Of a DNA stretch of 33,474 bases, positions 14,107 through 30,761 are shown one piece after another. A program made the translations under genes and the position numbers. The first letter of the stretch is position 1; every line of letters starts with the position of its first letter. Below the pieces are notes generated by a model. It saw only the letters and a program-made list of their open reading frames with translations. It was not told where the DNA came from and did not search any database. This stretch comes from Sphingomonas bacterium (lineage in GTDB: Bacteria; Pseudomonadota; Alphaproteobacteria; Sphingomonadales; Sphingomonadaceae): assembly GCF_028293085.1 (NCBI RefSeq), contig NZ_JAQGLC010000398.1, positions 1 through 33,474 on the forward strand. Reading direction: 5' to 3'.

Positions 14107-14526
14107 CTAATCCTTCAGAAACTTGCCGAGCGCCACCAACTCCTGCCGCTCAAATCCGAGTGCCGCGTAGAAACCGAGCGCCGCGACATTGCCGTCGCGG
14201 ACCATCAGCTGCATCTTCGGTGCCCCGCGCGCCCGCAGCCAGGCCTCCGCCGCCGCCATCAGCGTACGACCAATGCCATTCCGCCGGTGCCCGACCGCGA
14301 CCGCGAGATAATAGACCCAACCGCGATGCCCATCGAAGCCGACCATGATCGACCCGATAATCGCCTCGCCATCACGGACGATCAGGATGGTCGAGGTCGA
14401 TCCGGCGAGCGCCAACGCGAAATCGTCGCGCGGATCGTTCCACGGCCTGGTCAGGCCGCAGACTTGCCACAGGTCGATAACCGCGGCGGCTTCGCCGACG
14501 CCGGCCGCGCACACCCGATCGCTCAT
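14107..14526 (-). CDS. ypeA: GNAT acetyltransferase, YpeA family
   Basis: A 139-residue GNAT-fold N-acetyltransferase. It matches E. coli YpeA along its length: LWQVCGLTRPWNDPRDD near the start, a GFDGHRGWVYYLAV strand, the acetyl-CoA loop HRRNGIGRTLM, LGFYAALGFE, and the C-terminal LGKFLKD. The substrate is not known. The ATG at 14526 is chosen because it overlaps the stop of the metallo-beta-lactamase gene by four bases (ATGA) and gives the family's normal N-terminus; the frame stays open upstream, but that part is an artefact inside the neighbouring gene. Confidence 0.88.
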   Translation of the reverse strand: MSDRVCAAGVGEAAAVIDLWQVCGLTRPWNDPRDDFALALAGSTSTILIVRDGEAIIGSIMVGFDGHRGWVYYLAVAVGHRRNGIGRTLMAAAEAWLRARGAPKMQLMVRDGNVAALGFYAALGFERQELVALGKFLKD

Positions 14527-15413
14527 TTTCTTCCCGTCTGTGCCGCCAGATCGGCCGCGAAGGCGATCCTTGCCCTGGCCACGATCGTGCCGAGCAGCGC
14601 CCGATCGACGAATGCATTGCGCTGCCCCGCGTCGCGCCGGACCCGGCGGCCATGCACATCGGCCAGCTCGGGATGCGCGGGCAGCACCACATCGGCCCGG
14701 ATCGCCGCCATCCGGGCGAAGCTGGCGCGATAGTCCCCGACGATGCCGGGATAACGCCGGTTGCCGACCAGGCGATTGCCCGCGACGGTGAGGCTGCACG
14801 GGATCACGACCCGCAACGGCGTGCCGCGTTCGAACATCTGCAGGGTCCATGTCGTGCAGCCGGGTGTGTGGCCCGGCGTTGCATGCGCGACGAGCGTGGT
14901 GGCGCCGAGCCGGACGGTCTCGCCCTCGCCTATCCCCCGGTCGACAGCCGCCGCCGGGAAGTCGACCCCGCCGGTCAGGCTTTCGCCCGGCGCCTTTCCT
15001 GTCTGAACCGCGATCCTGTCCCCGGCGCCCACGATCAGCTGCGCCCCGCTATCGGCCTTCAGCCGGGCGAGGCCGCCGGCGTGATCGAAATGGGCGTGAG
15101 TGAGCAGCAGATATTTGATGTCGCGCATCCGCACGCCGATCGTCGCGAGGTTGCGTTCGATCATCGGCACGTTTGCGGCCATCGTCCCGTCGATCAGGAT
15201 GTCGCCGCGCTCAGTCTTGACGAGATAGGATGCGAGGCCCTCGCTGCCGACATAATAGATATTGCCGACGATCCGGAAGGGCGGGACGGGGCGCGTCCAG
15301 GAAGGCGGATCGAGGCTGGGCGCGACCGGTGACTGGGCGGCCGAAGGCGCTCCCAGCGCCACGGCCGCAGCGATCAGCGCTCCGCGCGGGCACAACTTCA
15401 TCGTCCGGGACAT
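14523..15413 (-). CDS. Subclass B3 metallo-beta-lactamase-like protein
   Basis: A protein of 296 residues from Met at 15413 (Met at 15401 and 15440 are alternatives), with a signal peptide ending near AAQS, so it is exported. It has the B3 zinc-ligand set: His106, His108, Asp110 and His111 in THAHFDHAGG, His182 in TPGHTPGCTTW and His247 in LPAHPE. The CSLT segment near 206 matches the B3 active-site loop. Enzymes of this subclass hydrolyse beta-lactams, often carbapenems, in the periplasm; environmental relatives such as those of Caulobacter do so as well. Activity and spectrum are not shown here. It overlaps the ypeA gene and follows the serine hydrolase by 75 bases. A non-lactam hydrolase of the same fold remains possible. 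Confidence 0.85.
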   Translation of the reverse strand: MSRTMKLCPRGALIAAAVALGAPSAAQSPVAPSLDPPSWTRPVPPFRIVGNIYYVGSEGLASYLVKTERGDILIDGTMAANVPMIERNLATIGVRMRDIKYLLLTHAHFDHAGGLARLKADSGAQLIVGAGDRIAVQTGKAPGESLTGGVDFPAAAVDRGIGEGETVRLGATTLVAHATPGHTPGCTTWTLQMFERGTPLRVVIPCSLTVAGNRLVGNRRYPGIVGDYRASFARMAAIRADVVLPAHPELADVHGRRVRRDAGQRNAFVDRALLGTIVARARIAFAADLAAQTGRK

Positions 15414-15488
15414 GGCGCCGGTGCCTATCACGAGACTCATCGCCAAGTCCAAAAAACACCGTCCCGGAAGTGAGGTAAAGGAGTGGCT

Positions 15489-16763
15489 TCAGTCCCCCGG
15501 CCCGCCGACATAACCAGGCCCATAGACGGCGGCGCGGATATCGTGATGCAGCGTTCCGTCGAACGGCGTGACCTGAACGAAGAATATCACCGCCATGTCG
15601 TTGGCCGGGTCCACCCAGAACAGGGTGGTCTCGGCGCCGTCCCAGAAGAATTCGCCGACCGCGCCGCGATTCTCCGCGGCGTCGCGTGGCTGCCCGGTGC
15701 GGACAGCGAAATCGAACCCGAACCCGACCGCCCCTTTGCCCGGCAGGAAGAAGCGCCGGGTGACGCGCGGGTCGAGCTGGTCAGTCGACATCAGCCGCAC
15801 GGTCGACGGCGCGAGGATGCGTACGCCCTCCAGCGTGCCGCGGCCGAGCAGCATGCGGGCAAAGCGCATATAATCGTCGAGCGTCGAGGCAAGGCCCGCC
15901 CCGCCCATCGTCAGGCGGCGCGGAGCGAAATTGAGCGCGCGCGTCTTTTCGTCGGGCTGGCGCACGAGCGCGCCGTCCGCCTGCTTCACATAGCTCGCGG
16001 CGAACCGCGCGAGGCGCTCGGGCGGCTGGGTCCAGCCGGTGTCGTGCATGCCGAGCGGATCGAGAATCGTGCGCCGGACATGCTGCTCGAAAGGCTCCCC
16101 GGTCAGATGCTCGACCAGCAATGCCTGGACATCGACCCCCGTGCTGTAGCTCCACTCGGCGCCGGGATCGAACAGCAGCGGCACGCGGGCGAGCTTGTCG
16201 CCCATCTCTTCGAGGCTGTTGGTCAGCGCGAGCGGGTTGATGTCGTGGAAGATGACGTCCGCCGCGGTGTCGCGCATGCCGTAGGAGAAGCCCGCCGTGT
16301 GCCGCATGATGTCGCGGATCACGATCGGGCGCGTGGGCGCGCGGAGGACGGGCTTGCCGTCGGCGCCCGTGCCGTCGATCACCTTGACCTCGCCAAAGGC
16401 GGGCAGATAGCGCGCGAGCGGATCGTCGAGGCCGAACTTTCCCTGTTCCCAGAGCTGCATCAGCGCGACGCCGGTCACCGGCTTGGTCATCGAGAAGATC
16501 TGGACGAGCGTATCGCGGCGCATCGGCCGGTGCGCCTCGCGATCGGCCTCGCCCGCCGCGCCGAAATAGCGTTCCGCGCCGTTCTGCCAGATCAGCGCCG
16601 ACGCGCCCGCCGCACGCCCGCCGGCGACCATCTGGCGGAGCGCCGCATCGATCCGCGCGCGATCGAGGGTGAAACCCGACACCCTGGCCGGTTCGCCCGC
16701 CCAGGCAAGGCGTGGCGCGGTCAGCCCCAGGACGATCGTCGCCAATGCGTTGCGTCGCTGCAT
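15489..16763 (-). CDS. Serine hydrolase of the beta-lactamase/EstB family, exported
   Basis: A 424-residue protein starting at the ATG at 16763, which has a good ribosome binding site (AGGGGAGAAG). A signal peptide (RRNALATIVLGLTAPRLAWA) targets it to the periplasm. The catalytic SxxK tetrad is Ser91-Met-Thr-Lys94 (FSMTKP), and the second motif is Tyr196-Ser-Thr (WSYSTGVD), which deviates from the YxN of true class C enzymes, while the C-terminal part has a WDG element as in EstB-type esterases. An esterase or peptidase role is therefore more likely than beta-lactam hydrolysis. Its promoter region is shared with the divergent GH16 gene and holds a LacI-type operator, so it may act on decorated glucans (deacylation); that is inference. 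Confidence 0.8.
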   Translation of the reverse strand: MQRRNALATIVLGLTAPRLAWAGEPARVSGFTLDRARIDAALRQMVAGGRAAGASALIWQNGAERYFGAAGEADREAHRPMRRDTLVQIFSMTKPVTGVALMQLWEQGKFGLDDPLARYLPAFGEVKVIDGTGADGKPVLRAPTRPIVIRDIMRHTAGFSYGMRDTAADVIFHDINPLALTNSLEEMGDKLARVPLLFDPGAEWSYSTGVDVQALLVEHLTGEPFEQHVRRTILDPLGMHDTGWTQPPERLARFAASYVKQADGALVRQPDEKTRALNFAPRRLTMGGAGLASTLDDYMRFARMLLGRGTLEGVRILAPSTVRLMSTDQLDPRVTRRFFLPGKGAVGFGFDFAVRTGQPRDAAENRGAVGEFFWDGAETTLFWVDPANDMAVIFFVQVTPFDGTLHHDIRAAVYGPGYVGGPGD

Positions 16764-16788: not shown

Positions 16789-16804
16789 TTGATAACGTTC
16801 ACAA
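16789..16804. promoter_or_regulatory. LacI-type operator TTGATAACGTTCACAA between serine hydrolase and GH16
   Basis: The 16-base sequence has 12 of 16 positions in palindromic agreement (TTGnnAACGTTnnCAA) around a central CG, which is typical of LacI-family operators. The first 14 bases recur exactly, in reverse orientation, upstream of the TonB-dependent receptor (24285-24298). It lies in a 121-base divergent promoter region and overlaps weak -10 candidates of both genes, so it could control both. The LacI gene at 32272 is the obvious candidate regulator. Confidence 0.65.
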
Positions 16805-16884
16805 GGCCGGCTTTACAATCGATTTAACCGATCCGTGTCTCGGGTCTACAGCATGTCCGGCATCGACCGGGAGAGGATAACGCG

Positions 16885-17712
16885 ATGAGCCCGCTCATCA
16901 TGCTGATGACCGCGCAGGCGGCGAGCCTGGCCGCGACCAATTATACGGTCGATGTGCCGATGAGGGCCCCCGTCTCGGCGCCGAACTGGGCCGATGAGTT
17001 CGACGGCGCGCAGATCGACCGCGAGACATGGCGGTTCGATACTGCGCGCAATGCGCAGGGCTGGTATAATCATGAGCTCCAATATTATGCCGACGCCCGG
17101 CCCGAAAACGTCAGGATCGAGGGCGGTGCGCTGGTGATCAAGGCCCGCCACGAGACGCTGCCCGCGCAGAGCGACTGGGGCGGACAGGCCTATACGTCCG
17201 CGAAACTCGTCAGCCGCAAAGCCTATGGCCCCGGTTTCTACGAAATCCGCGCGAAGCTGCCCTGCGCACGCGGCACCTGGCCGGCGATCTGGCTGTTGCC
17301 GGCGGGCGGATCCTGGCCCGACGAAGGCGAGATCGACCTGATGGAAATGGTCGGCTGGCAGGCGGAGGTCGTCCATGCGACGCTCCACACCGCCGCGTTC
17401 AACCATCGCCTGGGAACGCAGCGTGGCGCCGAGCGACGCGTGCCGACGAGCTGCTCCGAATTCCATCGCTATCAGCTGGACTGGGGCGCCGATGCGATCA
17501 CGATCGGGGTCGACGACCGCGCCTATATGCGCGTGAGGAACGACCAGCCCGGGGGCAAGGCCGCGTGGCCCTTCACGCGGCCGTATAATCTGATCCTCAA
17601 CCTGGCCATCGGCGGCGACTGGGGCGGCGCGAAGGGCGTGGACGACGCGGCGCTGCCGCAGCTGATGGCGGTCGATTATGTGCGCCATTGGCGGGGGGCG
17701 CCGCAACGATGA
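16885..17712 (+). CDS. Glycoside hydrolase family 16 endo-beta-glucanase (laminarinase-like)
   Basis: A 275-residue protein with a short signal peptide and one GH16 domain. The catalytic motif GEIDLMEMVG gives nucleophile Glu149, assisting Asp151 and acid/base Glu154 (ExDxxE, the arrangement typical of beta-1,3- and beta-1,3-1,4-glucanases). Substrate-cleft segments LQYYADARPENV, TWPAIWLLP and NLAIGGDWGG are also present, as in bacterial laminarinases. It is expected to cut beta-1,3-glucan chains outside the cell or in the periplasm. The start is preceded by GGGAGAGGATAACGCG. It overlaps the DUF6445-like gene by four bases (ATGA), and the GH55-like gene follows. Confidence 0.93.
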   Translation: MSPLIMLMTAQAASLAATNYTVDVPMRAPVSAPNWADEFDGAQIDRETWRFDTARNAQGWYNHELQYYADARPENVRIEGGALVIKARHETLPAQSDWGGQAYTSAKLVSRKAYGPGFYEIRAKLPCARGTWPAIWLLPAGGSWPDEGEIDLMEMVGWQAEVVHATLHTAAFNHRLGTQRGAERRVPTSCSEFHRYQLDWGADAITIGVDDRAYMRVRNDQPGGKAAWPFTRPYNLILNLAIGGDWGGAKGVDDAALPQLMAVDYVRHWRGAPQR

Positions 17713-18403
17713 GCCGGCCCGACATCATTGTTCACCACCTCGGGCGAGAGAAGCAGCCACTCGTCGTCATCGACAATTTCGCGCCCGATCCCGACGCACT
17801 CCGCGCGGCCGCGATCGCGGCCCGGTTCGGCCCGGCCCTGCATTACTATCCGGGCATCCGCGCACCCCTTCCGGCCGATTATATCCCTGAGCAGCAACCG
17901 GTCATTGCCGCGGTGCTGGCCGAGGTCTTCGGCCAGCCCGGTCCGATCCAGTTCATCGATGCGAGCTTTTCGATGGTCACGGCGGAGCCGATGGCGCTGT
18001 CGGTCAACCAGCGTCTGCCGCATTGCGATGCCTTTGCGGTCGAGCGCATTGCGCTGATCCATTATCTCTCGCCCGAAGGGGGCGACGGCACGGCCTTTTT
18101 CCGGCACCGCTCGACCGGCTTCGAGACGGTCGATGAGGCGCGCAAACCGATCTATTTCGATCAGCTCGGCGCCGAGATCCGTTACGGCGGCCCCCCCCCT
18201 TGGCCTATGTCGACGGCGACACGCCGCTGTTCGAACGCATCATGCTGGCCGAAGCGCGGTATAATCGCGCGCTGATCTATCGAAGCTATGCGCTGCACAG
18301 CGGCGCCATCACGCCGGGCGCGATGCTGTCGCCCGATCCGGCAAAGGGTCGCCTGACCGTGACGGGATTCCTCTCGGTCGAACAAACGCGGGAGAATCGC
18401 TGA
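17709..18403 (+). pseudogene. DUF6445-like 2OG-Fe(II) oxygenase-like gene, frameshifted at a nine-C run
   Basis: The gene starts at 17709 (ATGA overlap with GH16) and reads correctly to residue about 160. At the run of nine C (18191-18199) the frame shifts into an unrelated tail that stops at 18275. The expected C-terminus continues from 18200 in another frame (AYVDGDTPLFERIMLAE...IYRSYALHSGAI...) and stops at 18403. Ten or seven C would restore one 230-residue protein. The visible features are a HCDAFAVERIALIHYLSP block (HxD) and, in the shifted part, LHSG, which look like the iron ligands of a 2-oxoglutarate oxygenase; the distal His would be lost. DUF6445 genes commonly accompany TonB-receptor/halogenase clusters. 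A true mutation, phase variation and a sequencing error are all possible. Confidence 0.75.
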
Positions 18404-20181
18404 TGGGGGGTCAACCAACGAGGCGCTCGGTTGTGGCGGGATTGGCCGCCGCTGCGGTCGCGGCGACGATCGAACCGGCGGTGACATCGGCCGCGGCCCT
18501 TTCCGCCAAAATGCCGGATCCTGATCTCGGGCGGGACGTCCTGATCGTCGATCCGTCCATGCCGCCTGCGATGCTCCAGCAACGCCTCGACGCGATCTTC
18601 CGGTCGATGGAACGCGCGCACTTCTCCGATGCACGCCACGCGATCCTGTTCAAGCCGGGCCGGCACCAGGTCGACGTCAATGTCGGCTTCTTCACGCAGG
18701 TCGCGGGGCTCGGCCTACTGCCGGGCGATGTCGCGATCCATGGACATGTCCATGCCGAAGCGGACTGGGCCAAGGGCATGGCGCTGGTGAATTTCTGGCG
18801 CGGCCTCGAGAATCTGGCGGTCCGCCCGGCCGATGGCGCTGACCGCTGGGCCGTATCGCAGGCGGCGCCCTATCGGCGGGTCCATCTAAGCGGCGACCTC
18901 GTGCTGGACGATGGCGGCTGGTCGAGCGGCGGCTTCATCGCCGATTGCCGGATCGACGGCGTGATCCGCTCGGGATCCCAGCAGCAATGGTTCACGCGCA
19001 ACAGCGCAATGCGTGGCTGGCAGGGTTCGAACTGGAACATGATGTTCATGGGCGTCGAGGGTGCGCCCGCGACAAGCTTTCCGGAGCCGCCCTACACGAC
19101 TATCCCGAGCGTTTCCGTGATGCGGGAGAAGCCATTCCTGCACGTCGATGCGCAGGGTCATTGGCAGGTGTTCGTGCCAGCCGTGCGCCGGGAAGGGCGC
19201 GGCACCTCCTGGGGGGACGGGAAACCGCGCGGCACCTCGATTCCCCTGCCGCGCTTCTTCATCGCGCGCCCGGGCATGCCGGCACGGCAGATCAACGCGG
19301 CGCTGGCGCGCGGACGGCATTTGCTGCTGACCCCCGGCATCTACCGTCTCGACGCGCCGCTCAAGGTCGACCGTGCGAACACCGTCATCCTCGGGCTCGG
19401 CTTCGCGACCCTGGTGGCCGAGGGCGGCAGCAAGGCGATCGTCGTGGCGGACGTGCCCGGCGTATCGATCGCCGGGCTGCTGATCGACGCGGGGCCAACG
19501 CTCTCCCCGGTCCTGGTGGAAATAGGGCCGAGGGGGAGCAGCCGCGATCATCGCGCCAATCCGACCTTGCTCTCGGATATCTTCTTCCGGGTCGGTGGAG
19601 CGACCATCGGCAATGCGGAAACCTGCCTGGAGATCAACAGCCATCACGTGATCGGCGACCATCTGTGGATCTGGCGCGCCGATCATGGCGATCGGGCAAG
19701 CGGCCGCATCCATGTCGGCTGGGACGAGAGCGTCGGCAACCAAGGGCTGGTCGTGAACGGCGACGACGTGACGATGAGCGCGCTCTTCGTGGAGCATTTC
19801 CGCCACTACAACACGCTGTGGAACGGCGAGCGTGGACGGACCTGGTTCTACCAGAACGAGCTGCCTTATGACCCGCCCAGTCAGGCTGCGTACATGGCCG
19901 GCACGACGCGCGGCTGGGCCGCCTACAAGGTCGCCGACCGGGTGGACGATCATCAGGCCGTGGCGCTGGGCATCTATGCCAATTTCACCGCCGCCCCCGA
20001 TATCGTCGTGGAGAGCGCGATCGAGGCGCCGCGCAAACCGGGCGTACGGTTCACCAATGTCACGACGATCTCGCTCGGCGGCGGCAAGGGGACAATCGCT
20101 CATCTGGTCAACGATGCCGGCACGGCGGCAAGGCCAGGAGCGATCAGGCAGACGCTCGTCAGCTATCCAGCCCGGACCTAG
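18403..20181 (+). CDS. Secreted beta-helix protein, GH55-like ('coagulation factor 5/8 type' family)
   Basis: A 592-residue protein with a twin-arginine-type signal peptide (TRRSVVAGLAAAAVAA), so it is probably exported folded. The body has the repeated strands of a double right-handed beta-helix, with segments well known from actinobacterial secreted proteins labelled 'coagulation factor 5/8 type' or, wrongly, 'adenylyl cyclase': ILFKPGRHQVDVNVGFFTQV, DRWAVSQAAPYRRVH, VLDDGGWSSGGFIAD, FFIARPGMPARQINAAL, and YFYQNE-like WFYQNELPYDPPSQAA. Fold and context suggest an exo-acting glucanase comparable to GH55; catalytic residues cannot be fixed by eye. Its ATG shares one base with the stop of the correct frame of the upstream gene (TGATG), so translation is normally coupled and would be weakened by the frameshift. 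Confidence 0.75.
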   Translation: MGGQPTRRSVVAGLAAAAVAATIEPAVTSAAALSAKMPDPDLGRDVLIVDPSMPPAMLQQRLDAIFRSMERAHFSDARHAILFKPGRHQVDVNVGFFTQVAGLGLLPGDVAIHGHVHAEADWAKGMALVNFWRGLENLAVRPADGADRWAVSQAAPYRRVHLSGDLVLDDGGWSSGGFIADCRIDGVIRSGSQQQWFTRNSAMRGWQGSNWNMMFMGVEGAPATSFPEPPYTTIPSVSVMREKPFLHVDAQGHWQVFVPAVRREGRGTSWGDGKPRGTSIPLPRFFIARPGMPARQINAALARGRHLLLTPGIYRLDAPLKVDRANTVILGLGFATLVAEGGSKAIVVADVPGVSIAGLLIDAGPTLSPVLVEIGPRGSSRDHRANPTLLSDIFFRVGGATIGNAETCLEINSHHVIGDHLWIWRADHGDRASGRIHVGWDESVGNQGLVVNGDDVTMSALFVEHFRHYNTLWNGERGRTWFYQNELPYDPPSQAAYMAGTTRGWAAYKVADRVDDHQAVALGIYANFTAAPDIVVESAIEAPRKPGVRFTNVTTISLGGGKGTIAHLVNDAGTAARPGAIRQTLVSYPART

Positions 20182-20191
20182 GGCTGCCCTC

Positions 20192-20420
20192 GGCGCGATT
20201 CGCGTCCAACAAAAAGCGCGATTTCCGGCTGTTCCTGGCTGTTACGTCGACGAATTTTTTTGCTGGCTGTTATGTTGGATTTAGAGCCGGAATTTATGAG
20301 CCACTTTCAATTACTTAAATCCTTTCTGGCTGTTATCGGACAACAGCCAGCATAACAGCGAGGAACAGCCAGCCAAGCCGACTGTTTCGCCGGGAACAGC
20401 AGGCGCGGATTCGTCCAACA
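20192..20420. repeat. Repeat element: GGCTGTT/AACAGCC cluster flanked by imperfect direct repeats
   Basis: Four forward copies of GGCTGTT (20227, 20237, 20265, 20328) face two exact inverted copies AACAGCC (20342, 20364) and two partial ones (20354, 20395). The 18 bases at 20227-20244 and at 20353-20370 are inverted repeats with one mismatch. The centre forms a perfect 9-bp hairpin, CTGGCTGTT-N7-AACAGCCAG (20326-20350). Imperfect direct repeats of about 19 bases (GGCGCGATTCGCGTCCAACA at 20192 and GGCGCGGATTCGTCCAACA at 20402) flank the block. It fills most of the 373-base gap between the GH55-like gene and the MFS gene, and the rest holds nothing recognisable. A non-autonomous mobile or REP-like element is inferred. 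Confidence 0.65.
20326..20350. repeat. 9-bp perfect hairpin inside the repeat element
   Basis: CTGGCTGTT (20326-20334) and AACAGCCAG (20342-20350) pair perfectly around a seven-base loop. It lies between the convergent ends of the GH55-like and MFS genes, so it could also slow transcription, but no T-run follows. Confidence 0.6.
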
Positions 20421-20554
20421 GGATTCAGCGCTTGGAAAGAGCAGGACGGAGCCTGCGCAGCGATCCGTCCGGATCAAAGCTGCCACCTTTCGCTGCAGTG
20501 TTGAATCAAGGGGCATGACGCTGACGGCCATCCGCCATTGAAACTCGATTCGCC

Positions 20555-21778
20555 CTAATGCCGGCCGCGCACCCCGAGGATCGCGAGACCGCCGCAAAGG
20601 GCCAGCCCGGCGAGCGCGAGCATCAATGTGCTGAAATCGCGTGGCGTCGCGAGCGACCAGGTGAGAAGTGGGCCGAGAAACTGCGGCAGCGTGTTCGTCA
20701 GGTTGATCAGCCCGAGATCGCGGCCACGGTGGCGCGGATCGGGCAACAGCTGCATCGTGAAGGCCGCGAGCAAGGGCAGGAAGACGCCCGAACCGATCGC
20801 ATAAAGGCCGAACGCGATGGCGCCCATCGCCCAGCCATGGGCAAGGGCCATGCCGAGCAACCCGATGGCGGCGACCGCCGCGGCAGCCAGCAGGAACGGC
20901 TTGCGGCGATCGAGCCGGTCGGACAGGCGCCCGACCAGCACGGCGATCGGCAAAGGCAGCACGAACGATATCGTCAGCAGATGGCCGACGTGCCGCGCGA
21001 GATCGCGTGGTGCCTCGTTCGGGGTGATGCTCTCGAAATAATAGAGCAGGTAGAGCGACATAACCGCCCCGGCGACCTGGAGGAAGAGCCGCGTCCCCCA
21101 GGCGACGGCGAGGTCGCGGCGGCGCGACATCACTGCCTCGCGCGGTTCGACCACGATGGGAATCGGGCGTGCCCGCAACAGCAACAATGGCGTGACGCAT
21201 AAAATGATCGCGAGCACCACGATGGCAAGCTGGCCCGTCTCGTCGAGCGAGCCGATGCTCACCACGATCGCGAGCACGGTTGACGCAGCCGGGTTGGCGA
21301 GCGCCAGCAGTCCGCCGGCAAAGCCCTTCTGGGCGTCGGGAACCTCATCCGCCATGATCGCCCAGAGCGGCCCGAGCATCGCGTTGAGGGCGGTCTGATA
21401 GATGATCGTCGCCAGGACGATGGCGCCCGGTGTCGAAGCGGCGTCGATGAACGCGTAGGACAGTGCCGTGGCGGCCAGGCCGCCGCCTACCCAGCGGCGA
21501 CGCCCCCCGCCCGCTGCCACCGACCGGTCACTCGCCCAGCCGAACAGGATGTTGGACAGGCTTGCGGCGATCGCCCCGCTGACGACCGTGGCGCTCAACA
21601 GGCCGAGCCGGCCGTCGCCCGCAAGCGCTTCGATCTTCATCGGCAGCAACAGGGTCAGGAGCGGCAGATAGCCCATCACCCCACCGGCAATGGCGATGGC
21701 GAAGATCAGCAGGAAGCCGATCGAGCGATGACCGTCGTGCGGTCGTGCCGCGAGTGCAGGAGCGAAACGAAATGCCAT
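20555..21778 (-). CDS. Major facilitator superfamily transporter
   Basis: A protein of about 407 residues from the ATG at 21778; a TTG at 21817 would add 13 residues and cannot be excluded. About twelve hydrophobic helices are visible. The loop after helix 2 carries the MFS signature LFGWASDRSVAAGGGRRRW, and the repeat in the second half is VGRLSDRLDRRKPF. It is an inner-membrane transporter, 58 bases downstream of the GH3 beta-glucosidase gene on the same strand (20 with the TTG start), so it probably imports the glucose or short gluco-oligosaccharide released in the periplasm. The substrate is inferred from the context, not from the sequence. Confidence 0.88.
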   Translation of the reverse strand: MAFRFAPALAARPHDGHRSIGFLLIFAIAIAGGVMGYLPLLTLLLPMKIEALAGDGRLGLLSATVVSGAIAASLSNILFGWASDRSVAAGGGRRRWVGGGLAATALSYAFIDAASTPGAIVLATIIYQTALNAMLGPLWAIMADEVPDAQKGFAGGLLALANPAASTVLAIVVSIGSLDETGQLAIVVLAIILCVTPLLLLRARPIPIVVEPREAVMSRRRDLAVAWGTRLFLQVAGAVMSLYLLYYFESITPNEAPRDLARHVGHLLTISFVLPLPIAVLVGRLSDRLDRRKPFLLAAAAVAAIGLLGMALAHGWAMGAIAFGLYAIGSGVFLPLLAAFTMQLLPDPRHRGRDLGLINLTNTLPQFLGPLLTWSLATPRDFSTLMLALAGLALCGGLAILGVRGRH

Positions 21779-21836
21779 CCCCGGCGCGACCTTGCGCCCG
21801 TCGGCGGCGATCGGCAACAGGCCGGGCGCCGTCAGG

Positions 21837-24101
21837 TCACTGCTTCATCGTCGCGCGATCGAGCATCGCCGTCGAGACCGTCGAGCGATCGGCCGCATCG
21901 CGCGCCAGCGCGACCCGGTACCGACCGCCGGCGATCCGCCAGCCGGGCAGCTTCACGTCATAATCGGCGACGATGCGCGGTTCGGCGGTCAGCGTCACAT
22001 GGCGCACCTCGCCGGGCTTCAAGGTGACGCGGGTGAACGCGGCGAGCCGCATCGGCGCTTCCGATCCCTCGCGCGTGACGTACATCTGCGGTACGTCCGC
22101 ACCGGCGCGGCGGCCGGTATTGACCACATCGAACGACACGCTCAGCGCCTTGCCGCCGGTCACGACGACGTGCCGATAGGCGAAGCTCGTGTAGCTGAGC
22201 CCGTGTCCGAACGAGAATAAGGGCCGTTGGCCTTTCTTCTCATACCAACGATACCCGACATCGGCCCCCTCCACATAGTCGACCGGGAAGCTCCTGAGCT
22301 GATATTTGCCCCCGCTGCCCGGATCGGCGGCGGCCTGCGCCTCGAGCGAGGTCAGGGTGTCGAGCCCGACCGGTGCCGGGCGTGGCGCCTGCGACGCCGC
22401 CGCGAGAAAGGTGATCGGCAGGCGTCCGGACGGATTGACCCGGCCGGTCAGGATATTGGCGATCGCCTCGCCGCCACGCTGCCCGGGATACCAGGCCTGG
22501 ACCACCGCCGGCACCGATTTCAGCCACGGCATCAGCACCGGACCGCCGGTTTCGAGCACGGCGATCGTCCTGGGTTGCGTCGCGGCGACCGCCGCGATCA
22601 GCTCGTCCTGGCCGTCGGGCAGCGACAGGTTCGGCACGTCCTGCGCCTCGGTCGTCCACTGGGTGGCGAAGACGATCGCGATATCGGCGGTGCGGGCGGC
22701 TGCGGCTGCGGCCGCGACGTCCTTCCCGTCGACAAAGTCGATCTGCGCCAGCGGCAGGGCGGCGCGCAGCGCCTTGAGCGGTGACGAGGCATGATAGGTG
22801 TATCGCGCGAACGACATTGCCGCGCCCGACGTCAGCGGGATCTCGACCGGTGCACCGCCGACCGAGCGCACCTGGCTCGATCCGCCGCCCGACAGGACAC
22901 CGAGATCGGCGCGCCCGCCGATCACGACGATGCGCTTCGCGGTGCGCGCGAGCGGCAGCGTGCCGCGGTCATTTTTCAACAGGACGATTCCGGCTTCCGC
23001 CGCGCGCTGCGCCACCCCGGCATGCTGCGCATAGGGGATCGGCTGCACTATGGCCGGCACCGGCGCGTCGTACAGGCCGGTTTCGATCAGCCCGGTCAGG
23101 TAGCGCGTCACCATGTCGTCGAGCCGCGCCATCGGCACCTTGCCCGATGCGATATCGGCCTTGAGCCGGTCGCTGAAGAAGATGTCGCTGTCGAGCTCCT
23201 GGCCCGATTCCTGGTCGAGCCCCGCATTGGCGGCCTTGGCGGTCGAATGGACCCCGCCCCAATCGCTCATCACCCAGCCGCGATAACCCCAGTCGCGCTT
23301 CAGCACATGATTCAGCAGAAAGTCGTTCTCGCAGCCCCAGTCGCCATTGACCTTGTTGTACGAACACATGACCGAGCCGGGCTTCCCGCGCTCGATCGCG
23401 ATCTGGAAGGCGAGCAGGTCGCTTTGGCGCAGGCTGGCCTCGTCGATCCGCGCATCGAGCACCATCCGCCCGGTTTCCTGCGCGTTGAGCGCGTAATGCT
23501 TGATCGTCGACACGATGCGGTTCGACTGCACGCCCGCGATATGGGCGCCCGCCATACTGCCCGCGAGCAGCGGATCCTCGCCGAGATATTCGAAATTGCG
23601 CCCGTTCCAGGGATCGCGCGTCAGGTTGACGCCGCCCGCGAGCAGCACATTGAACCGCTTGGCGCGCGCCTCCGCGCCGATCATCGCACCGCCGGCGCGT
23701 GCGATCTCCGGGTCGAAGCTCGCCGCCGTCGCCAGGCTGGACGGCAGTGCGGTGGCGACGTCGCCCTTGCGCTGCTCGACCTGGTTGGCGACGCCGAGCG
23801 ACGCATCGCTCTCGCGCACGAGCGGCACGCCCAGCCGGGGCACGCCATCGATATGACCGGCCGAAGGAATCAGCTCATTGGCCGTCTTGCCCTTGGCCCT
23901 TGGCGGGAAAAGTCCGTGCACCAGCCCGATCTTTTCGTCGAGCGTCATCCTGGCGACGATCGCTTGTGCCCGCATACGGGCATCCCCGCGAACGGGCTTC
24001 CCGACCGACGCGCGCTCCGGTTCGCGGGCAAGACCCGTCGCCGCACCCACCAGAGCGAAAACCGACACTGCGGCCAGTGCCCCCTGTAACCTTTTCGGCA
24101 T
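21837..24101 (-). CDS. Glycoside hydrolase family 3 beta-glucosidase, exported
   Basis: A 754-residue protein with a signal peptide (residues 1-25) and the full GH3 layout: TIM-barrel domain with KHYALNAQE at 201-209 and the nucleophile Asp280 in VMSDWGGVHS; a second alpha/beta domain starting near GIVLLKNDRGTLPL; and a C-terminal fibronectin-III-like domain beginning after PLFSFGHGLSYTSF. It should release terminal glucose from beta-gluco-oligosaccharides in the periplasm. An AGGGAATCGGG ribosome binding site precedes the ATG. The MFS transporter follows on the same strand. The gene is divergent from the TonB-dependent receptor, with 241 bases between the starts containing the LacI-type operator. 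Confidence 0.95.
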   Translation of the reverse strand: MPKRLQGALAAVSVFALVGAATGLAREPERASVGKPVRGDARMRAQAIVARMTLDEKIGLVHGLFPPRAKGKTANELIPSAGHIDGVPRLGVPLVRESDASLGVANQVEQRKGDVATALPSSLATAASFDPEIARAGGAMIGAEARAKRFNVLLAGGVNLTRDPWNGRNFEYLGEDPLLAGSMAGAHIAGVQSNRIVSTIKHYALNAQETGRMVLDARIDEASLRQSDLLAFQIAIERGKPGSVMCSYNKVNGDWGCENDFLLNHVLKRDWGYRGWVMSDWGGVHSTAKAANAGLDQESGQELDSDIFFSDRLKADIASGKVPMARLDDMVTRYLTGLIETGLYDAPVPAIVQPIPYAQHAGVAQRAAEAGIVLLKNDRGTLPLARTAKRIVVIGGRADLGVLSGGGSSQVRSVGGAPVEIPLTSGAAMSFARYTYHASSPLKALRAALPLAQIDFVDGKDVAAAAAAARTADIAIVFATQWTTEAQDVPNLSLPDGQDELIAAVAATQPRTIAVLETGGPVLMPWLKSVPAVVQAWYPGQRGGEAIANILTGRVNPSGRLPITFLAAASQAPRPAPVGLDTLTSLEAQAAADPGSGGKYQLRSFPVDYVEGADVGYRWYEKKGQRPLFSFGHGLSYTSFAYRHVVVTGGKALSVSFDVVNTGRRAGADVPQMYVTREGSEAPMRLAAFTRVTLKPGEVRHVTLTAEPRIVADYDVKLPGWRIAGGRYRVALARDAADRSTVSTAMLDRATMKQ

Positions 24102-24258
24102 CCCGATTCCCTTCGCAGCGCCGCTTGCCGGTAGAGCCGGTGCGGCTATATTTCTTGGTGGCGACCAAGCGCGAGGTCAGCGTGAAATTGATATAATTAC
24201 CAATTTTCACAATGATATAGGCAGATATCACCTGCCCGCCACCGTTCAGCGAACCAAC

Positions 24259-24275
24259 TTGACAACGATCGACAA
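24259..24275. promoter_or_regulatory. Possible second, degenerate operator
   Basis: TTGACAACGATCGACAA resembles the operator form TTGnnAACGTTnnCAA with one extra base and one mismatch, and lies 25 bases from the good site at 24283-24298. Its first six bases are also a perfect -35 hexamer (TTGACA), so either reading is possible. Confidence 0.3.
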
Positions 24276-24282
24276 ATTTTGC

Positions 24283-24298
24283 AAGTGAACGTTATCAA
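24283..24298. promoter_or_regulatory. LacI-type operator upstream of the TonB-dependent receptor
   Basis: The sequence AAGTGAACGTTATCAA carries, on the opposite strand, the exact 14-mer TTGATAACGTTCAC found at 16789-16802. It ends 44 bases before the receptor start. A possible promoter, TCGACA (24269-24274) and TTATCA (24292-24297) with 17 bases between, would place the operator over the -10. The divergent GH3 gene could be controlled by the same site. Confidence 0.65.
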
Positions 24299-24342: not shown

Positions 24343-27336
24343 ATGCGCCGTTTCTCGGCTCGCGTGCTGTCGCGATTGGTGATTGGGGCCTCGGTTCTGG
24401 CGATTTCCGCCGTCTCCGGCGTCGCCGAGGCACAGGAAGCAACCACTCAGGATCAACCGGCCGGAGCAGCGGCGCCCGATGACGCCGACATCGTCGTCAC
24501 CGGCATCCGCGCCAGCTTGCGGGAATCGCGCGACATCAAGCGTGATTCGCAGGGCGTGGTCGACGCGATCTCTGCCGAAGACATCGGCAAGTTCCCCGAC
24601 ACCAACCTCGCCGAATCGCTGCAGCGCATCACCGGCGTGTCGATCGACCGGTCCAATGGTGAGGGTTCGCTCATCACCGTCCGCGGCTTCGGCCCCGAAT
24701 TCAACCTCGTCACGCTGAACGGCCGGCAAATGCCGACCTCCACGCTGGGCGACGGCGGCAGTGCGCCTTCGACGCGCTCGTTCGATTTCGCCAACCTCGC
24801 CTCGGAAGGCATTTCGGCCGTCGAGGTCTACAAGACCGGCCGCGCCACGGTCGAATCGGGCGGCATCGGCTCGACGATCAATATCCGCACCCCCCGGCCG
24901 CTCGACCGGCCCGGCATGCGCGGCAGCCTCTCGGTCAAGGGCGTGTATGATTCGTCGCGCAACGAGGGCAATCCGATCACCCCGGAAGTCTCCGGCATCT
25001 TCAGCACGACCCTCGCTGACGACCGTGTCGGCATCCTGCTGACCGGCGCCTATCAGAAGCGCAAGGCCAGCGTGAACCAGGCCAATGTCGGCTGGCGCGA
25101 CGGCTATCTCGGCAACGAGAATAACTGGGGCTCGCTCGCTCAGCCGGGCGACCCGCGTTACGCCAACATCACCAACCACCCTGACCCCACCGATGTCTAT
25201 CAGGTGCCGCAGAACGCGTCCTACGATCTCAACGACATCAATCGCGAGCGCATTAACGGTCAGCTCGTAGTGCAATTCCGTCCGGTCGACTCCCTCACCG
25301 CGACGCTGGACTATACCTATTCGCGCAATACGGTTGAGGTGCGGAACAGCAATGTCGGCATCTGGTTCAACCATAACGACACGTCGAGCGCCTGGACCGA
25401 CGGTCCCGTCGCCGGGCCGGTCTTCTACACCGAGCGTTTCGGCGTGAACGAGGGCAAGGACCTGTCCTATAGCGGCTCGCTGACCGCCAACCGTACCGAG
25501 AACAAGTCGATCGGCGGCAACCTGACCTGGAAGGCGCCGGGCGGCGTCACCATGGAGCTGGACTATCACCACTCCACCGCCGAATCGAAGCCGACCAACA
25601 AATATGGCTCGAGCGTCTCGGTCGGCAATGCCGTGTTCGGCATCGCAAGCCAGACGATCAATTTCGATCATGACCTGCCGGTCCTGTCCTACAACATGAA
25701 TCCCGGCATCAATGCGCTCAATGCGGCGCTGATCACCCCCACCGGCAACGCCTTCCGCAACGCCTATTTCCGCGACCAGATCGATCAGGTGCAGCTACGC
25801 GGTCATTACGACCATGATGGCGGCTTCCTCGACAGCCTCGATTTCGGCGTGTCGTTCATCAAGAACAAGGTCCGCTCGGCATTCGGCGTGATCCAGAACG
25901 ACACCTGGGGCGGCGCTGCGCCGGCGAGCTATATTCCGGACGACATCTTCCATCAGGTGTCGTTGCCCGACAAATTCCCGGGCCTCAGCCAGGCGGGCAT
26001 GATCCAGAGCTTCTACGCCTTCGATTTCGAACGGATGGTCACACTGATCGACACCAACACCGCAGCGCACCCGTCAGCGGTGTGCGGCGGCGACGGCGAC
26101 TGCCTGGCCACCTTCACGACCGATCGGCGCATCACCGAAAAGACCCTGTCGCCCTATTTGCAGATCAATACCGGTTTCGACGTCGGCGGGCGCCGGGCGC
26201 ACTTCGTCGCGGGTGCGCGGTACGAGCACACCCAGGTCGACTCCTCGGCTTTGGTGCCGGTCCCGACCGCAACGCGCTGGGTCGCCGCGAACGAATTCGG
26301 CCTGGTCTTTGGGGGCGGCAGCGCCTTCACCAGCTTCAAGGGAACCTATCAGAACTGGTTGCCTTCGGCCGATTTCGACATCGAGCCGTTGGCGGGTGTC
26401 AAGCTGCGGGCATCCTATAGCCACACCATCACGCGCGCCGATTATGCCAGCCTGCAGGGCGGCCGGACGCTCGATCAGCTGTTCCGCATCGGCGGCGGCA
26501 CGGGCAGCCAGGGCAATCCGGGCCTGATCCCGTACAAGTCCAAGAATATCGATCTGTCGGCGGAATGGTATTACGGCCAGGACAGCTATGTTTCGGTCGG
26601 CTATTTCCACAAGAACGTGTCGAACTTCCTCTCGACCACCCGCGTCGATACGTCGGCATTCAACCTCAGGAACCCGGGCTCCGGCCCGCGCTATGCCGCC
26701 GCGATCGCGGCACTGGGCGCCAATGCCGCCGCGGTCGATATCCGGCAATATATCTTCACCCACTACCCCGCCTCGACCGTTCAGACCGGCGTGGACGCCA
26801 ATGGTTATATCACCGGCGACATTCTCGGCCTGCCCGAGGACAATCTGCTGAACTTCCAGATCACCACGCCGACCAACAGCAACCAGACGGCCAATATCAG
26901 CGGCTGGGAATTCGCGGTCCAGCACAGCTTCTGGAACACCGGCATCGGTACGATCCTGAACTACACGATCGTCAACGGCAGCGCGGTCTACGACAACACG
27001 AAGCCGTCCAGCGTTGCGCAATTCGCGCTTGTCGGTCTCAGCAACAGCGCCAACGCGGTGCTGTTCTATGACAAGAAAGGCATACAGGCGCGCGTCGCGT
27101 ATAACTGGCGCGACCAGTTCCTGCAGGGCGGGGGCCCCAACCCCACTTATGTCGAAGCTTATGGCCAGGTCGACGCGAGCGCGAGCTACGAGTTCATCAA
27201 GGGCTTCACCGTCTTCGGCGAGGTCATCAACCTCACCGGCTCGGGGCGGCGTGCCCATCTGCGCTCTGATCGCAACGTGACCTTCGTGTCGCCGGGCTAT
27301 GCGCGCTATGCGGCGGGTGTCCGGTTCGCGTTCTGA
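24343..27336 (+). CDS. TonB-dependent outer membrane receptor (Xanthomonas/Caulobacter type)
   Basis: A protein of 997 residues from the ATG at 24343, preceded by GGGGAGAGG; an earlier in-frame start lacks support. A signal peptide (about 1-31) is followed by a TonB-box-like segment (ADIVVTGIR) and a plug domain with DISAEDIGKFPDTNLAESLQRITG-type features (seen as AISAEDIGKFPDTNLAESLQ), VRGFGPEFNLVTLNGR and VEVYKTGRATVESGG, all typical of the TonB-Xanth-Caul family. The rest is a 22-strand beta-barrel that ends in the classical C-terminal Phe (YAAGVRFAF). It takes up large substrates across the outer membrane with energy from TonB. The glucanase neighbours suggest beta-glucan oligosaccharides as substrate. 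It is followed by a terminator and the halogenase/SapC operon. Confidence 0.95.
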   Translation: MRRFSARVLSRLVIGASVLAISAVSGVAEAQEATTQDQPAGAAAPDDADIVVTGIRASLRESRDIKRDSQGVVDAISAEDIGKFPDTNLAESLQRITGVSIDRSNGEGSLITVRGFGPEFNLVTLNGRQMPTSTLGDGGSAPSTRSFDFANLASEGISAVEVYKTGRATVESGGIGSTINIRTPRPLDRPGMRGSLSVKGVYDSSRNEGNPITPEVSGIFSTTLADDRVGILLTGAYQKRKASVNQANVGWRDGYLGNENNWGSLAQPGDPRYANITNHPDPTDVYQVPQNASYDLNDINRERINGQLVVQFRPVDSLTATLDYTYSRNTVEVRNSNVGIWFNHNDTSSAWTDGPVAGPVFYTERFGVNEGKDLSYSGSLTANRTENKSIGGNLTWKAPGGVTMELDYHHSTAESKPTNKYGSSVSVGNAVFGIASQTINFDHDLPVLSYNMNPGINALNAALITPTGNAFRNAYFRDQIDQVQLRGHYDHDGGFLDSLDFGVSFIKNKVRSAFGVIQNDTWGGAAPASYIPDDIFHQVSLPDKFPGLSQAGMIQSFYAFDFERMVTLIDTNTAAHPSAVCGGDGDCLATFTTDRRITEKTLSPYLQINTGFDVGGRRAHFVAGARYEHTQVDSSALVPVPTATRWVAANEFGLVFGGGSAFTSFKGTYQNWLPSADFDIEPLAGVKLRASYSHTITRADYASLQGGRTLDQLFRIGGGTGSQGNPGLIPYKSKNIDLSAEWYYGQDSYVSVGYFHKNVSNFLSTTRVDTSAFNLRNPGSGPRYAAAIAALGANAAAVDIRQYIFTHYPASTVQTGVDANGYITGDILGLPEDNLLNFQITTPTNSNQTANISGWEFAVQHSFWNTGIGTILNYTIVNGSAVYDNTKPSSVAQFALVGLSNSANAVLFYDKKGIQARVAYNWRDQFLQGGGPNPTYVEAYGQVDASASYEFIKGFTVFGEVINLTGSGRRAHLRSDRNVTFVSPGYARYAAGVRFAF

Positions 27337-27432: not shown

Positions 27433-29019
27433 ATGGAAGACGGGCGGCGACCAGTGGAAACGATCATCAACAAGGTCGTGATCGTCGGCGGGGGGACTGC
27501 CGGATGGCTCACGGCCTGCCTGATCGCGGCGCGCGCGAATCCGGCCGCCGAGAGGCCGATCAGCGTGACCCTGATCGAATCCCCCGATATTCCGACGATC
27601 GGTGTCGGCGAGGGAACGTGGCCGACGATGCGCGGAACGCTGGAGCGGATCGGCATCGCGGAAGCCGAATTCCTGACTGCCTGCGATGCCTCGTTCAAGC
27701 AGGGCTCGCGCTTCAATGGCTGGCTGACCGGCGCGGCGGACGACCATTATCTTCATCCCTTCACACCGCCGGTCGCCGGCGATCCGCGCGATCTGGTCGC
27801 GGCCTGGCAGGCGGAGGCTGCCGGTCGGCGCTTCGCGGATGTCGCCGGCCCGCAGCCAAAGATCTGCGCGCTCGATCTCGCGCCGCGCCAGCGTGCGATG
27901 CCCGATTATGCCGGGGCGCTGAACTATGCCTATCATCTCGATGCCGGAAAACTCGCCGCGCTGCTGGCCCGGCACGGATGCGAGCGGCTCGGCGTGCGCC
28001 ATCTGCGCGATCACGTCACGCAGATCGACATGGCGGGGAGCGGCGACATCGCAGCGGTTCGCACGCGCGCCAACGGCGCGGTCGAGGGTGATCTGTTCAT
28101 CGATTGCACCGGCCACGCGGCGCTCCTGATCGCCGGCCAGTACGGCGTCCCCTTCATCGACCGGGGCGGCGAGCTGTTCAATGACCGGGCGCTCGCGGTG
28201 CAGGTGCCGGTTGCTCCCGACAGCCCGATCGCCTCCCAGACAGAGGCCACCGCACATGCAGCGGGCTGGATCTGGGACATCGGCCTGCCGACGCGGCGCG
28301 GCGTCGGCTGTGTCTATTCCTCGCGCCATGCCAGCGATGACGAGGCCTCGGTAACGCTCGAGGCCTATCTGCGCCGGGCGATGCCGGGGCTCGGCGCCGA
28401 TCTGCCATCGATCCGCCGATTGTCCTTCTCGTCGGGCCATCGTGCGCGCTTCTGGGAACGAAATTGTCTGGCGATTGGCCAGTCGGCTGGCTTCCTCGAA
28501 CCACTCGAGGCGTCCGCGATCGTCATGATCGAGCTGTCGCTTGGTGCCCTGCTCGACAATTTCCCCGCGACGCGCGACGTGATGGCAGTGCACGCCGAGC
28601 GGTACAACGATCTGTTCCGCTATCGCTGGGATCGCATCGTCGATTTCCTCAAATTGCATTATGTCCTCAGCCGCCGCGACGAACCCTATTGGCGCGACCA
28701 TCGCGACCCGGGCAGCATCCCGGCCAGACTTCGCGACCTGCTGAGGATCTGGCGGTATCAGCCGCCCTCGGCGTCCGACTTTCCCGCGATCGACGAGATC
28801 TTCCCTCCCGCCAGCTATCAATATGTGCTGTATGGCCTGGGATTTCCTGCGCCGATCGGTGGCCCCATCATGACTGACACGCGGGAAGATGTGATGACGC
28901 AGCTTCGCCAGGCTGACCAACGGGCCCGTACGCTCGCTGCGAGCTTGCCGACCAACCGCCTGTATCTCGATGCGCTCCGCAAGGGCAGCACGTCTCCTGC
29001 CCTGGAACGGATTTCCTGA
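27433..29019 (+). CDS. Flavin-dependent tryptophan halogenase-like protein 1
   Basis: A 528-residue protein of the tryptophan halogenase family. The FAD-binding motif is [12 protein letters not shown] (residues 15-26). The catalytic Lys of the family corresponds to Lys89 (ASFKQGSRF), and the assisting Glu to Glu359 ([10 protein letters not shown]). The halogenase motif WxWxIP is altered to Trp279-Ile-Trp281-Asp-Ile-Gly-Leu-Pro. The substrate is unknown; family members encoded beside TonB receptors in Caulobacter-like bacteria include indole brominases, so halide oxidation is possible but unproven. It is the first gene of a tight operon with SapC, the cupin-like gene and halogenase 2. A GTG at 27454 is a less likely start. 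Confidence 0.88.
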
Positions 29020-29020
29020 A

Positions 29021-29737
29021 ATGGCCGACCACGCGATTCTTACCGCCACCGCGCACCGCGATCTGCGAATCCAGACCGGCCGCGCACCGGAACTGGGCGA
29101 CGCCGTCATGTGCTGCATCACCGTTCCCGACGAGTTCCGCCAGGTCCAGGACGACTATCCGATCCTGTTCCGGCTCGATGCCGAACGCGACAATTTCACC
29201 GCGCTGGCGATGTTCGGGTTCCAGAATGGCGAGAACCTCTATCTCGACGGCGGCCGCTGGGATGCCGATTATCTGCCCCTCGCGATCGATATTCAGCCAT
29301 TCCTGATCGGCGGGTCGGCGACCGATGACGGGGAAAAGCAGGTCCATGTCGACATGGCCAGCCCGCGGATCGCCAACGGCGAGGGCATGCGCGTGTTCGA
29401 CGAGGATGGGCGGCCGACGCCCTATCTGGAGACGATCACGGAGAAGCTTGGCGCGCTGGACGCGGGATATCGGGGATCGCAGGCCTTTTTCGCGGCGCTC
29501 CGCCGTCATGCGCTGCTCGAACCGCTGACGCTGGAGATCACGCTGGACGACGGATCGACCAACCGGCTGGTCGGCTTCCACGTGATCGACGAGGAACGGT
29601 TGCGGACGCTCGATGCGGGAGTCCTCGGCGATTTGCACGAGGCGGGGCATTTGATGCCGATCTTCATGGCGCTCGCCTCGCTCGGCAAGCTGCGGGACCT
29701 GATCGCGCGCAAGAACCGGCATCTCGGCCATGGCTGA
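29021..29737 (+). CDS. SapC family protein
   Basis: A protein of 238 residues from the ATG at 29021, one base after the halogenase stop. It fits the SapC family: a strand-rich start (HAILTATAHRDLRI), LDAERDNFTALAMFGFQNGENLYLDGGRWDADYLPLAI, and a C-terminal helix LASLGKLRDLIARKN. SapC was first named after a Campylobacter surface-layer-related gene, but its biochemical role is not established. In alphaproteobacteria and Xanthomonas it regularly lies beside TonB receptors, halogenases and cupin-like genes, as here. No signal peptide is seen, so it is cytoplasmic. It overlaps the next gene by eight bases. Confidence 0.87.
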   Translation: MADHAILTATAHRDLRIQTGRAPELGDAVMCCITVPDEFRQVQDDYPILFRLDAERDNFTALAMFGFQNGENLYLDGGRWDADYLPLAIDIQPFLIGGSATDDGEKQVHVDMASPRIANGEGMRVFDEDGRPTPYLETITEKLGALDAGYRGSQAFFAALRRHALLEPLTLEITLDDGSTNRLVGFHVIDEERLRTLDAGVLGDLHEAGHLMPIFMALASLGKLRDLIARKNRHLGHG

Positions 29738-30761
29738 GGCCGATCCCGGCATCTTCAGCGCGATCGCCCCGATTCCGGAGGTGACGGTGAACGGCGCCGC
29801 GGAGCTGGACGTGCGACTGCGCGGCGCGGATCGTCCCTTCGTCGTCCGCGGCCTGGTGGCCGACTGGCCGCTGGTCGCCGCCGGTCGTCGCTCGGGCCGC
29901 CAGGCGCGCGACTATCTGCTCGGCCTGCACCGTGACCGGCCCTTCACCGTCTCGGTTGGCGAGCAAGGCAGCGACGGGCGGATGTTCTACGACAGCGCGA
30001 TGGGCATGAATTTCCGCACGATGCGCGCAAAACTGCCGGAGATTTTCGCCCGGATCGACATGATCGAGGACATGGACGCGGCGCTGCCAATCTATCTCGC
30101 CTCGATCGACATGCACGAATATTTCGACGGGCTGCACGAAGCGAACCATGTCGATCTCGGCGATCGCACCAGCCTTGCGAGCATCTGGATGGGTACGCGC
30201 ACGCGGATCGCGGCGCATAACGACGTGCCCGACAATCTCGCCTGCGTCGCGGTCGGCCGCCGCCGCTTCACGCTGTTCCCGCGCGAGCAGTTCCGCAACC
30301 TGTACCTTGGGCCCGTCGACAATACGCCAGCGGGCCGCGCGATCAGCATGGTCGATTTCCATGCGCCCGACTTTTCGGCCCACCCGCGGTTCCGCGAGGC
30401 TCTGACACATGCCCAGACCGTCGAGCTGGACGCGGGCGACGCGCTCTACATTCCGGCCCTGTGGTGGCACCATGTCGAGGGGCTCGCGCCGTTCAACATA
30501 CTCGTCAATTACTGGTGGCGCGAAACGCCGCGCTGGCTCGGCCAGCCCCAGGACGCGCTCAACCATGCGCTGCTGGCGATCCGCGACCTGCCAGACGACC
30601 AGAAGGCCTATTGGCGCGACCTGTTCGACTATTATGTGTTCGCCAATAGCGACGAGGTCACAGCGCATATTCCCGAGGCCGGGCGCAGCGTGCTCGCGCC
30701 GCTCACACCCGAGAGCGCGGGCCGCCTCCGCGCCTATCTCCTGAGGCAATTGAGCCAATGA
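29730..30761 (+). CDS. Cupin-like (JmjC/FIH-type) 2-oxoglutarate-Fe(II) oxygenase-like protein
   Basis: A 343-residue protein of the cupin-like (Cupin_8) family related to JmjC/FIH hydroxylases. The iron ligands are visible: His163-Asn-Asp165 (AAHNDVPDN) and His247 in the usual IPALWWHHVEG segment. LFPREQFRNLYLGP and VDFHAPDF are also typical of the family. It should use iron, oxygen and 2-oxoglutarate to hydroxylate a protein or small molecule; the substrate is unknown. It has no signal peptide. The overlaps with SapC (eight bases) and halogenase 2 (ATGA, four bases) show tight co-expression. Confidence 0.88.
   Translation: MAEADPGIFSAIAPIPEVTVNGAAELDVRLRGADRPFVVRGLVADWPLVAAGRRSGRQARDYLLGLHRDRPFTVSVGEQGSDGRMFYDSAMGMNFRTMRAKLPEIFARIDMIEDMDAALPIYLASIDMHEYFDGLHEANHVDLGDRTSLASIWMGTRTRIAAHNDVPDNLACVAVGRRRFTLFPREQFRNLYLGPVDNTPAGRAISMVDFHAPDFSAHPRFREALTHAQTVELDAGDALYIPALWWHHVEGLAPFNILVNYWWRETPRWLGQPQDALNHALLAIRDLPDDQKAYWRDLFDYYVFANSDEVTAHIPEAGRSVLAPLTPESAGRLRAYLLRQLSQ

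Follow-up and report, generated by a model that had tools for sequence, protein, structure and literature searches.

Which regulator controls the glucan genes of a Sphingomonas locus, and do two copies of a 14-mer lying 7.5 kb apart mark its operators? The locus is carried on a 33,474-nucleotide contig of Sphingomonas bacterium (NZ_JAQGLC010000398.1; "the window" denotes this whole stretch), in which the 14-mer TTGATAACGTTCAC occurs exactly at 16789-16802 on the forward strand and at 24285-24298 on the reverse strand, as a first-pass annotation had claimed. Our comparative analyses suggest, with a probability of roughly 0.85, that the two sites serve as operators for the LacI-family repressor whose gene starts at 32272, a protein predicted to keep beta-1,3-glucan (laminarin-type) genes off until a glucan-derived sugar arrives. 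Judged from sequence, the conserved LacI operator of the glucan locus appears to be real, and the surprising part is that relatives carry operator pairs in phase with the DNA helix. The elements on which the argument turns are as follows.

16789..16804, + strand: operator 1, TTGATAACGTTCACAA, between the serine hydrolase gene (- strand) and the GH16 gene (+ strand); top motif score in the window
16812..16817, + strand: TTTACA, candidate -35 element of the GH16 unit, 7 nt past operator 1
24188..24212, + strand: TTGATA-12 nt-TTCACAA, likely remnant of a distal operator, exceeding an intact site by 9 bp
24259..24264, + strand: TTGACA, predicted -35 element of the TonB operon; operator 2 follows after 18 nt
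24283..24298, + strand: operator 2 (TonB-proximal), AAGTGAACGTTATCAA, overlapping the predicted -10 element of the TonB operon
32272..33339, + strand: LacI-family regulator at the end of the TonB operon, 5 nt past a halogenase gene; predicted binder of both operators
~33374-33474: start of a second LacI-family gene (recognition helix VSAMTVSR), truncated where the contig stops

A conserved, probable operator that accompanies the LacI ortholog

The hexamer AACGTT is unique to the two site centres, occurring twice in the 33 kb window and once per site, and the motif scores of the two sites are 24.8 and 26.1. The first-pass annotation had placed both copies within the palindrome TTGnnAACGTTnnCAA; direct reading rules this out for the second site, where the sequence is AAGTGAACGTTATCAA, 2 mismatches away, an asymmetric form that is the usual one for the TonB-proximal site in relatives. 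The sites have the form of a LacI operator, a 16-mer even palindrome with a central CG (in the AACGTT core) upstream of a start codon, and the even palindrome with central CG is given as a LacI-family feature in the part of PMC4052901 available. Two gene starts had been imprecise: judged from the sequence, the most likely start of the serine hydrolase is the ATG at 16763, in place of a GTG within the site, and that of the TonB gene is at 24343. Operator 1 lies 80 nt from the GH16 ATG and 25 nt from the serine hydrolase ATG.

The 32272 protein combines a LacI helix-turn-helix (HTH) domain with a periplasmic-binding-like sensor (PF00356 and PF13377, both above cut-off) and therefore belongs to the LacI family. 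Among at least 265 confirmed sphingomonad candidates, the closest LacI loci (84-86%) come from Sphingomonas sp., and the best 80 of these loci (1.52 Mb) served as a footprint sample. At least one site was found in 73 of the 80. The sites total 148, of which 146 lie no more than 350 bp upstream of TonB, GH3-family, MFS, halogenase or LacI matches and none lies inside such a match, and 12 other six-base control cores occurred 0-8 times each in the same flanks. The motif also tracks the regulator itself. Across 60 same-genus genomes, 33 carry a LacI ortholog (at least 54% identity, the next matches reaching at most 42%), and GTGAACGTTNNCA is found 64 times (58 places, symmetric sites being counted once) in 30 of these 33 genomes, compared with 11 matches in 9 of the 27 genomes without the ortholog; a control pattern gave 9 and 7 matches, respectively. 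The tails CACA, CTCA, CCCA or ATCA accompany 53 of the 64 matches with LacI versus 1 of the 11 without it. The view of the first-pass annotation that a LacI operator marks a glucan regulon thus has strong comparative support.

The genome-wide search that it had proposed gave a divided answer in the window's own assembly (5 Mb in 401 contigs). The palindrome TGNNAACGTTNNCA with up to 1 mismatch occurs in 17 places, compared with 25 for the control pattern, its sole exact copy being at 16790 (operator 1), and GTGAACGTTNNCA is present nowhere in the assembly but at the two window sites. Because the 1-mismatch palindrome is no commoner than the control, what is distinctive is the exact sequence and its conservation. 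The 14-mer TTGATAACGTTCAC is not confined to this genome, being found, for example, upstream of a GH3-family gene in many Sphingopyxis loci. A third candidate in the own genome, TTGATAACGCTCACA at C280:25843, was rejected; its nearest family matches are a glycosyltransferase, a dehydrogenase and an acetyltransferase, with no glucan gene.

Three genomes with the most distant orthologs and no exact match (G004, G046 and G051) have imperfect AACGTT-type sites upstream of GH3. In three others (G009, G037 and G042), LacI adjoins only the MFS gene, and a diverged TonB-halogenase locus situated elsewhere is preceded by GTGAACGTTAACA at a distance of about 100 bp, which would fit control in trans. Both G047 and G011 additionally have the motif in front of an acyltransferase gene and of a remote GH3 gene (L112:6322, L115:6658, L113:6350 and L116:6600), suggesting that the regulon is wider in some species. 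The counterparts of the G047 genes in the own genome were excluded from the regulon, neither having an exact site: the best match to the remote GH3 gene of G047 is at 56%, on a contig with another LacI gene about 230 bp away, and the best acyltransferase match is at 32%. LacI orthologs were also seen on large Novosphingobium and Sphingobium plasmids (5 of 72,556 records).

TonB promoter layout and helical phasing of operator pairs

Of the 80 loci, 50 showed a TonB ortholog complete with promoter, as did 23 of 34 LacI loci in a second set; removing identical promoters and adding the window gave 72 distinct TonB promoters. The comparison of related promoters proposed in the first-pass annotation comes out in favour of the site, the proximal operator being kept in all 72, with TTGAC at -35 distance in 71. 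The gap from the TTGACn hexamer to the proximal site is 17-18 bp in 67 of 74 promoters, and the second base of the would-be -10 element (17 bp spacer) is A in 61 of 71. The left outer arm of the TonB-proximal site is AA, AT, TA, GA or AG and not TT; together with the A in the would-be -10 element, this would explain why the window's second site departs from TTGnnAACGTTnnCAA.

A second site accompanies the proximal one in 64 of the 74 promoters, at 17-18 bp in 17 (Sphingopyxis, some Novosphingobium and other sphingomonads) and 45-91 bp upstream of it in 47. Spacing was tested on 45 promoters, the 10 single-site promoters, the 17 with 17-18 bp pairs and 2 more having been dropped, and clades within 3 bp on a quick tree were merged into 22 units. 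The spacings on the tree are 45 (1 promoter), 55-58 (11), 65-68 (17), 74-77 (6) and 87-91 bp (10). Over the 22 clade units, operator-operator spacing gives R 0.805 at a period of 10.9 bp, with 0 of 100,000 uniform draws as high, and distinct values alone give R 0.73 (p 8e-5); the fitted peaks are 55.6, 66.5, 77.4 and 88.3 bp. No such periodicity appears in the operator-ATG distances, whichever operator is taken (controls 0.19 and 0.18). The second operator of relatives is thus spaced by nearly whole turns of the helix, an arrangement suggestive of a repression loop or of two repressor dimers touching face to face. In the window, the sequence at 24188-24212 is likely a distal operator that has decayed, its score (-2.2) being the third best in the window and far below those of the two real sites, and single-site control would be expected here since this distal operator looks broken.

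An alternative to a repressor loop is that whole-turn spacing reflects face-to-face contacts with RNA polymerase or with the divergent GH3/MFS promoter. Lac-type tetrameric looping repressors carry a C-terminal tetramerisation tail, and the LacI studied here lacks it, having 5 residues past the aligned part compared with 26 in E. coli LacI (the orthologs are 347-374 residues long); the distal site also lies near the divergent gene. However, the distal site is kept where the divergent gene encodes an MFS transporter and not GH3 (e.g. L164, L167, L174 and L189), the operator-ATG distances lack the period, and the phase of the spacing differs by about 1 bp from the optimum for lac looping (~78.5 bp) given in the available part of PMC5081198. 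We regard this alternative as a contender that is nevertheless somewhat doubtful.

Genes of the locus and predicted extent of the regulon

The genes identified by family and structure searches, apart from those of the two regulators, are listed below.

14523..15452, - strand: subclass B3 metallo-beta-lactamase, above the NCBIfam cut-off; downstream of the serine hydrolase gene
15489..16763, - strand: serine hydrolase (PF00144; family search)
16885..17712, + strand: GH16, laminarinase-like (matches laminarinases)
18403..20181, + strand: 592-aa protein, full-length match to the solved chains 4pew/4pex (E 7e-182)
20555..21817, - strand: MFS transporter (family search)
21837..24101, - strand: GH3 enzyme, divergent from TonB
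24343..27336, + strand: TonB-dependent receptor (TIGR01782); heads the operon
27433..29019, + strand: tryptophan-halogenase family gene 1 (family search)
28970..29737, + strand: SapC (PF07277; family search)
29730..30761, + strand: Cupin_8 gene (family search)
30758..32266, + strand: tryptophan-halogenase family gene 2 (family search)

The substrate is probably a beta-1,3-glucan, since the 592-aa protein matches 4pew/4pex, which we take to be a GH55 exo-beta-1,3-glucanase, and GH16 matches laminarinases. A DUF6445 gene (+ strand; family searches) lies between GH16 and the 592-aa protein gene; a run of C at 18190-18200 inside it seems to be a frameshift or sequencing error, the listed frame stopping early while the other frame seems to go on. 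Between the 592-aa protein gene and the MFS gene, at positions 20227-20376, repeats of the GGCTGTTA type are nested in both inverted and direct orientation.

The first-pass annotation took the two sites as direct evidence that four transcription units form one regulon, a statement that proves too strong as a whole. Membership of the TonB operon, LacI included, is well supported by the conserved promoter layout. That of the GH16 unit is fairly supported by sequence: in L241 (from the genome of L149), the operator is followed after 7 nt by TTGACA before GH16, the same layout as in the window. In 34 of the 80 loci, a GH16 homolog is the immediate 5' neighbour of LacI and shares its strand, 30 of these loci having a TonB match further upstream on that strand, an arrangement in which GH16 would share the TonB operator. 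Membership of GH3 is plausible, although the operator nearer GH3 in relatives looks broken in the window.

It is unlikely that all four units, with the serine hydrolase and metallo-beta-lactamase among them, form a single regulon. Only position favours it, operator 1 lying 25 nt before the serine hydrolase ATG, which is like the site-to-start distance before GH16 in L068. Relatives argue the other way: in 7 further genomes of the genus, the serine hydrolase orthologs (61-77% identity) are unlinked to the LacI locus, with neither a site nor a lactamase gene in the 11.5-16 kb around them in any of the 7, and 2 of these genomes have no LacI ortholog. L241 has the site before GH16 and no serine hydrolase there, and the 80 LacI loci gave just one serine hydrolase match (26%, L162) and one lactamase match (36%, L187). 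The serine hydrolase/B3 metallo-beta-lactamase pair, whose membership is not supported by relatives, was thus provisionally left out of the predicted regulon.

Probable identity of the repressor

Binding of the sites by a different LacI, either the second one at the contig end or a paralog elsewhere, appears very improbable. Such candidates do exist, as the start of the second gene is present in the window, the genome has 10 LacI matches, and in QA11 a second LacI gene also follows the first (L147:11160-12179). This arrangement is, however, found in only 1 of the 80 loci (L147), and in the 34-locus set no second LacI gene was found downstream (~2 kb seen, less in L055), where the motif is present nonetheless; these statements rest on tblastn, HTH pattern searches having been too strict (they missed the window's second LacI and several paralogs). 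The second LacI carries the helix VSAMTVSR and not VSLQTVSR, which is found in 31 of 34 orthologs of the 32272 protein, the remainder differing at L, and it is the 32272 ortholog that the motif tracks. That the shared 14-mer is a chance repeat has practically no probability left: the bare palindrome at 1 mismatch is indeed at background in the own genome, but an exact repeat is expected 0 times in shuffled sequence and its conservation already refutes the idea.

Several results weigh against the sites being operators of the 32272 repressor or against their proposed mode of action. The exact GTGAACGTTNNCA was not found in 3 of the 33 LacI-bearing genomes, 7 of the 80 LacI loci have no site, and 10 of the 74 TonB promoters, the window's included, have a single site. 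A site precedes just 3 of 15 relatives' GH16 units (L061, L068 and L069), in addition to L241, a sample that omits L164, L167, L172, L173, L174, L189 and L212 (locus edges) and L153 (contig identical to L055), and none precedes GH16 in the closest complete-genome relative, G047 (L052 and L122). Looping by a LacI without the lac tail would also need another contact.

Proposed mechanism and significance

We propose that the 32272 LacI occupies both operators when no inducer is present, keeping the uptake and digestion genes and its own gene off, and that a glucan-derived sugar would free the repressor. Bound at operator 2, the repressor would shut RNA polymerase out of the TonB operon, since the site begins 18 nt after TTGACA, i.e. 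at the place of the -10 element; LacI being the last gene of this operon, the arrangement would give negative autoregulation. Operator 1, just upstream of the candidate GH16 -35 element, would control GH16.

A bolder scenario, which probably does not hold, is that the tail-less LacI closes loops of 4-8 turns over the glucan-uptake promoter throughout Sphingomonas, with loop length evolving by whole turns. The window would then be a natural loop-breaking mutant, with one operator at TonB and the second 7.5 kb off at the laminarinase gene, where the neighbouring serine hydrolase and B3 metallo-beta-lactamase may have been recruited to glucan control. For beta-1,3-glucan use by sphingomonads, the analysis provides a precise predicted operator, names a regulator and sets out a promoter layout that can be tested. 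If the phased pairs mean looping, the ~45 natural promoters form a loop-length series from 45 to 91 bp, making looping by a LacI-family repressor without the known tetramer tail directly testable.

Comparison with known systems

A close parallel is the E. coli lac operon (LacI, O1/O3), with which the present system shares a LacI-type HTH, an even palindrome with central CG, an operator over the core promoter and a second operator at whole-turn spacing. The lac half-site is GTGAGC, one base away from the half-site found here, GTGAAC. The present system differs from lac in that the sphingomonad LacI lacks the C-terminal tetramer tail, the regulated locus is a TonB-dependent glucan locus and the regulator lies inside the regulated operon. 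The fitted peaks of the relatives are again close to lac, lying about 1 bp from the ~78.5 bp optimum and its neighbours in what is available of PMC5081198.

No description of a sphingomonad LacI glucan regulon was found in the literature available as open-licence papers. Among alphaproteobacterial LacI-family regulators, BglR1-3 and GluR of Caulobacterales are predicted for beta-glucoside or glucose genes in the part of Ravcheev et al. 2014 (PMC4052901) available, whose text does not mention sphingomonads; the likeness drawn here is one of description. According to the accessible text of PMC1790865, SuxR of Xanthomonas campestris represses a single locus that encodes a TonB receptor, an inner-membrane transporter and a sugar enzyme, and mutants showed de-repression. 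This combination of a LacI-family repressor with a receptor, a transporter and an enzyme is shared with the present locus, whereas SuxR serves a sucrose locus and that portion of the text holds no operator pairs or phasing. Tandem LacI-family sites at 13, 22 and 32 bp are given in PMC4052901, where those at 22 and 32 bp are read as cooperative binding of two dimers. Whole-turn spacing is thus common to both; unlike those tandem sites, the pairs described here span 45-91 bp within one regulator group, next to the 17-18 bp pair of Sphingopyxis and some Novosphingobium.

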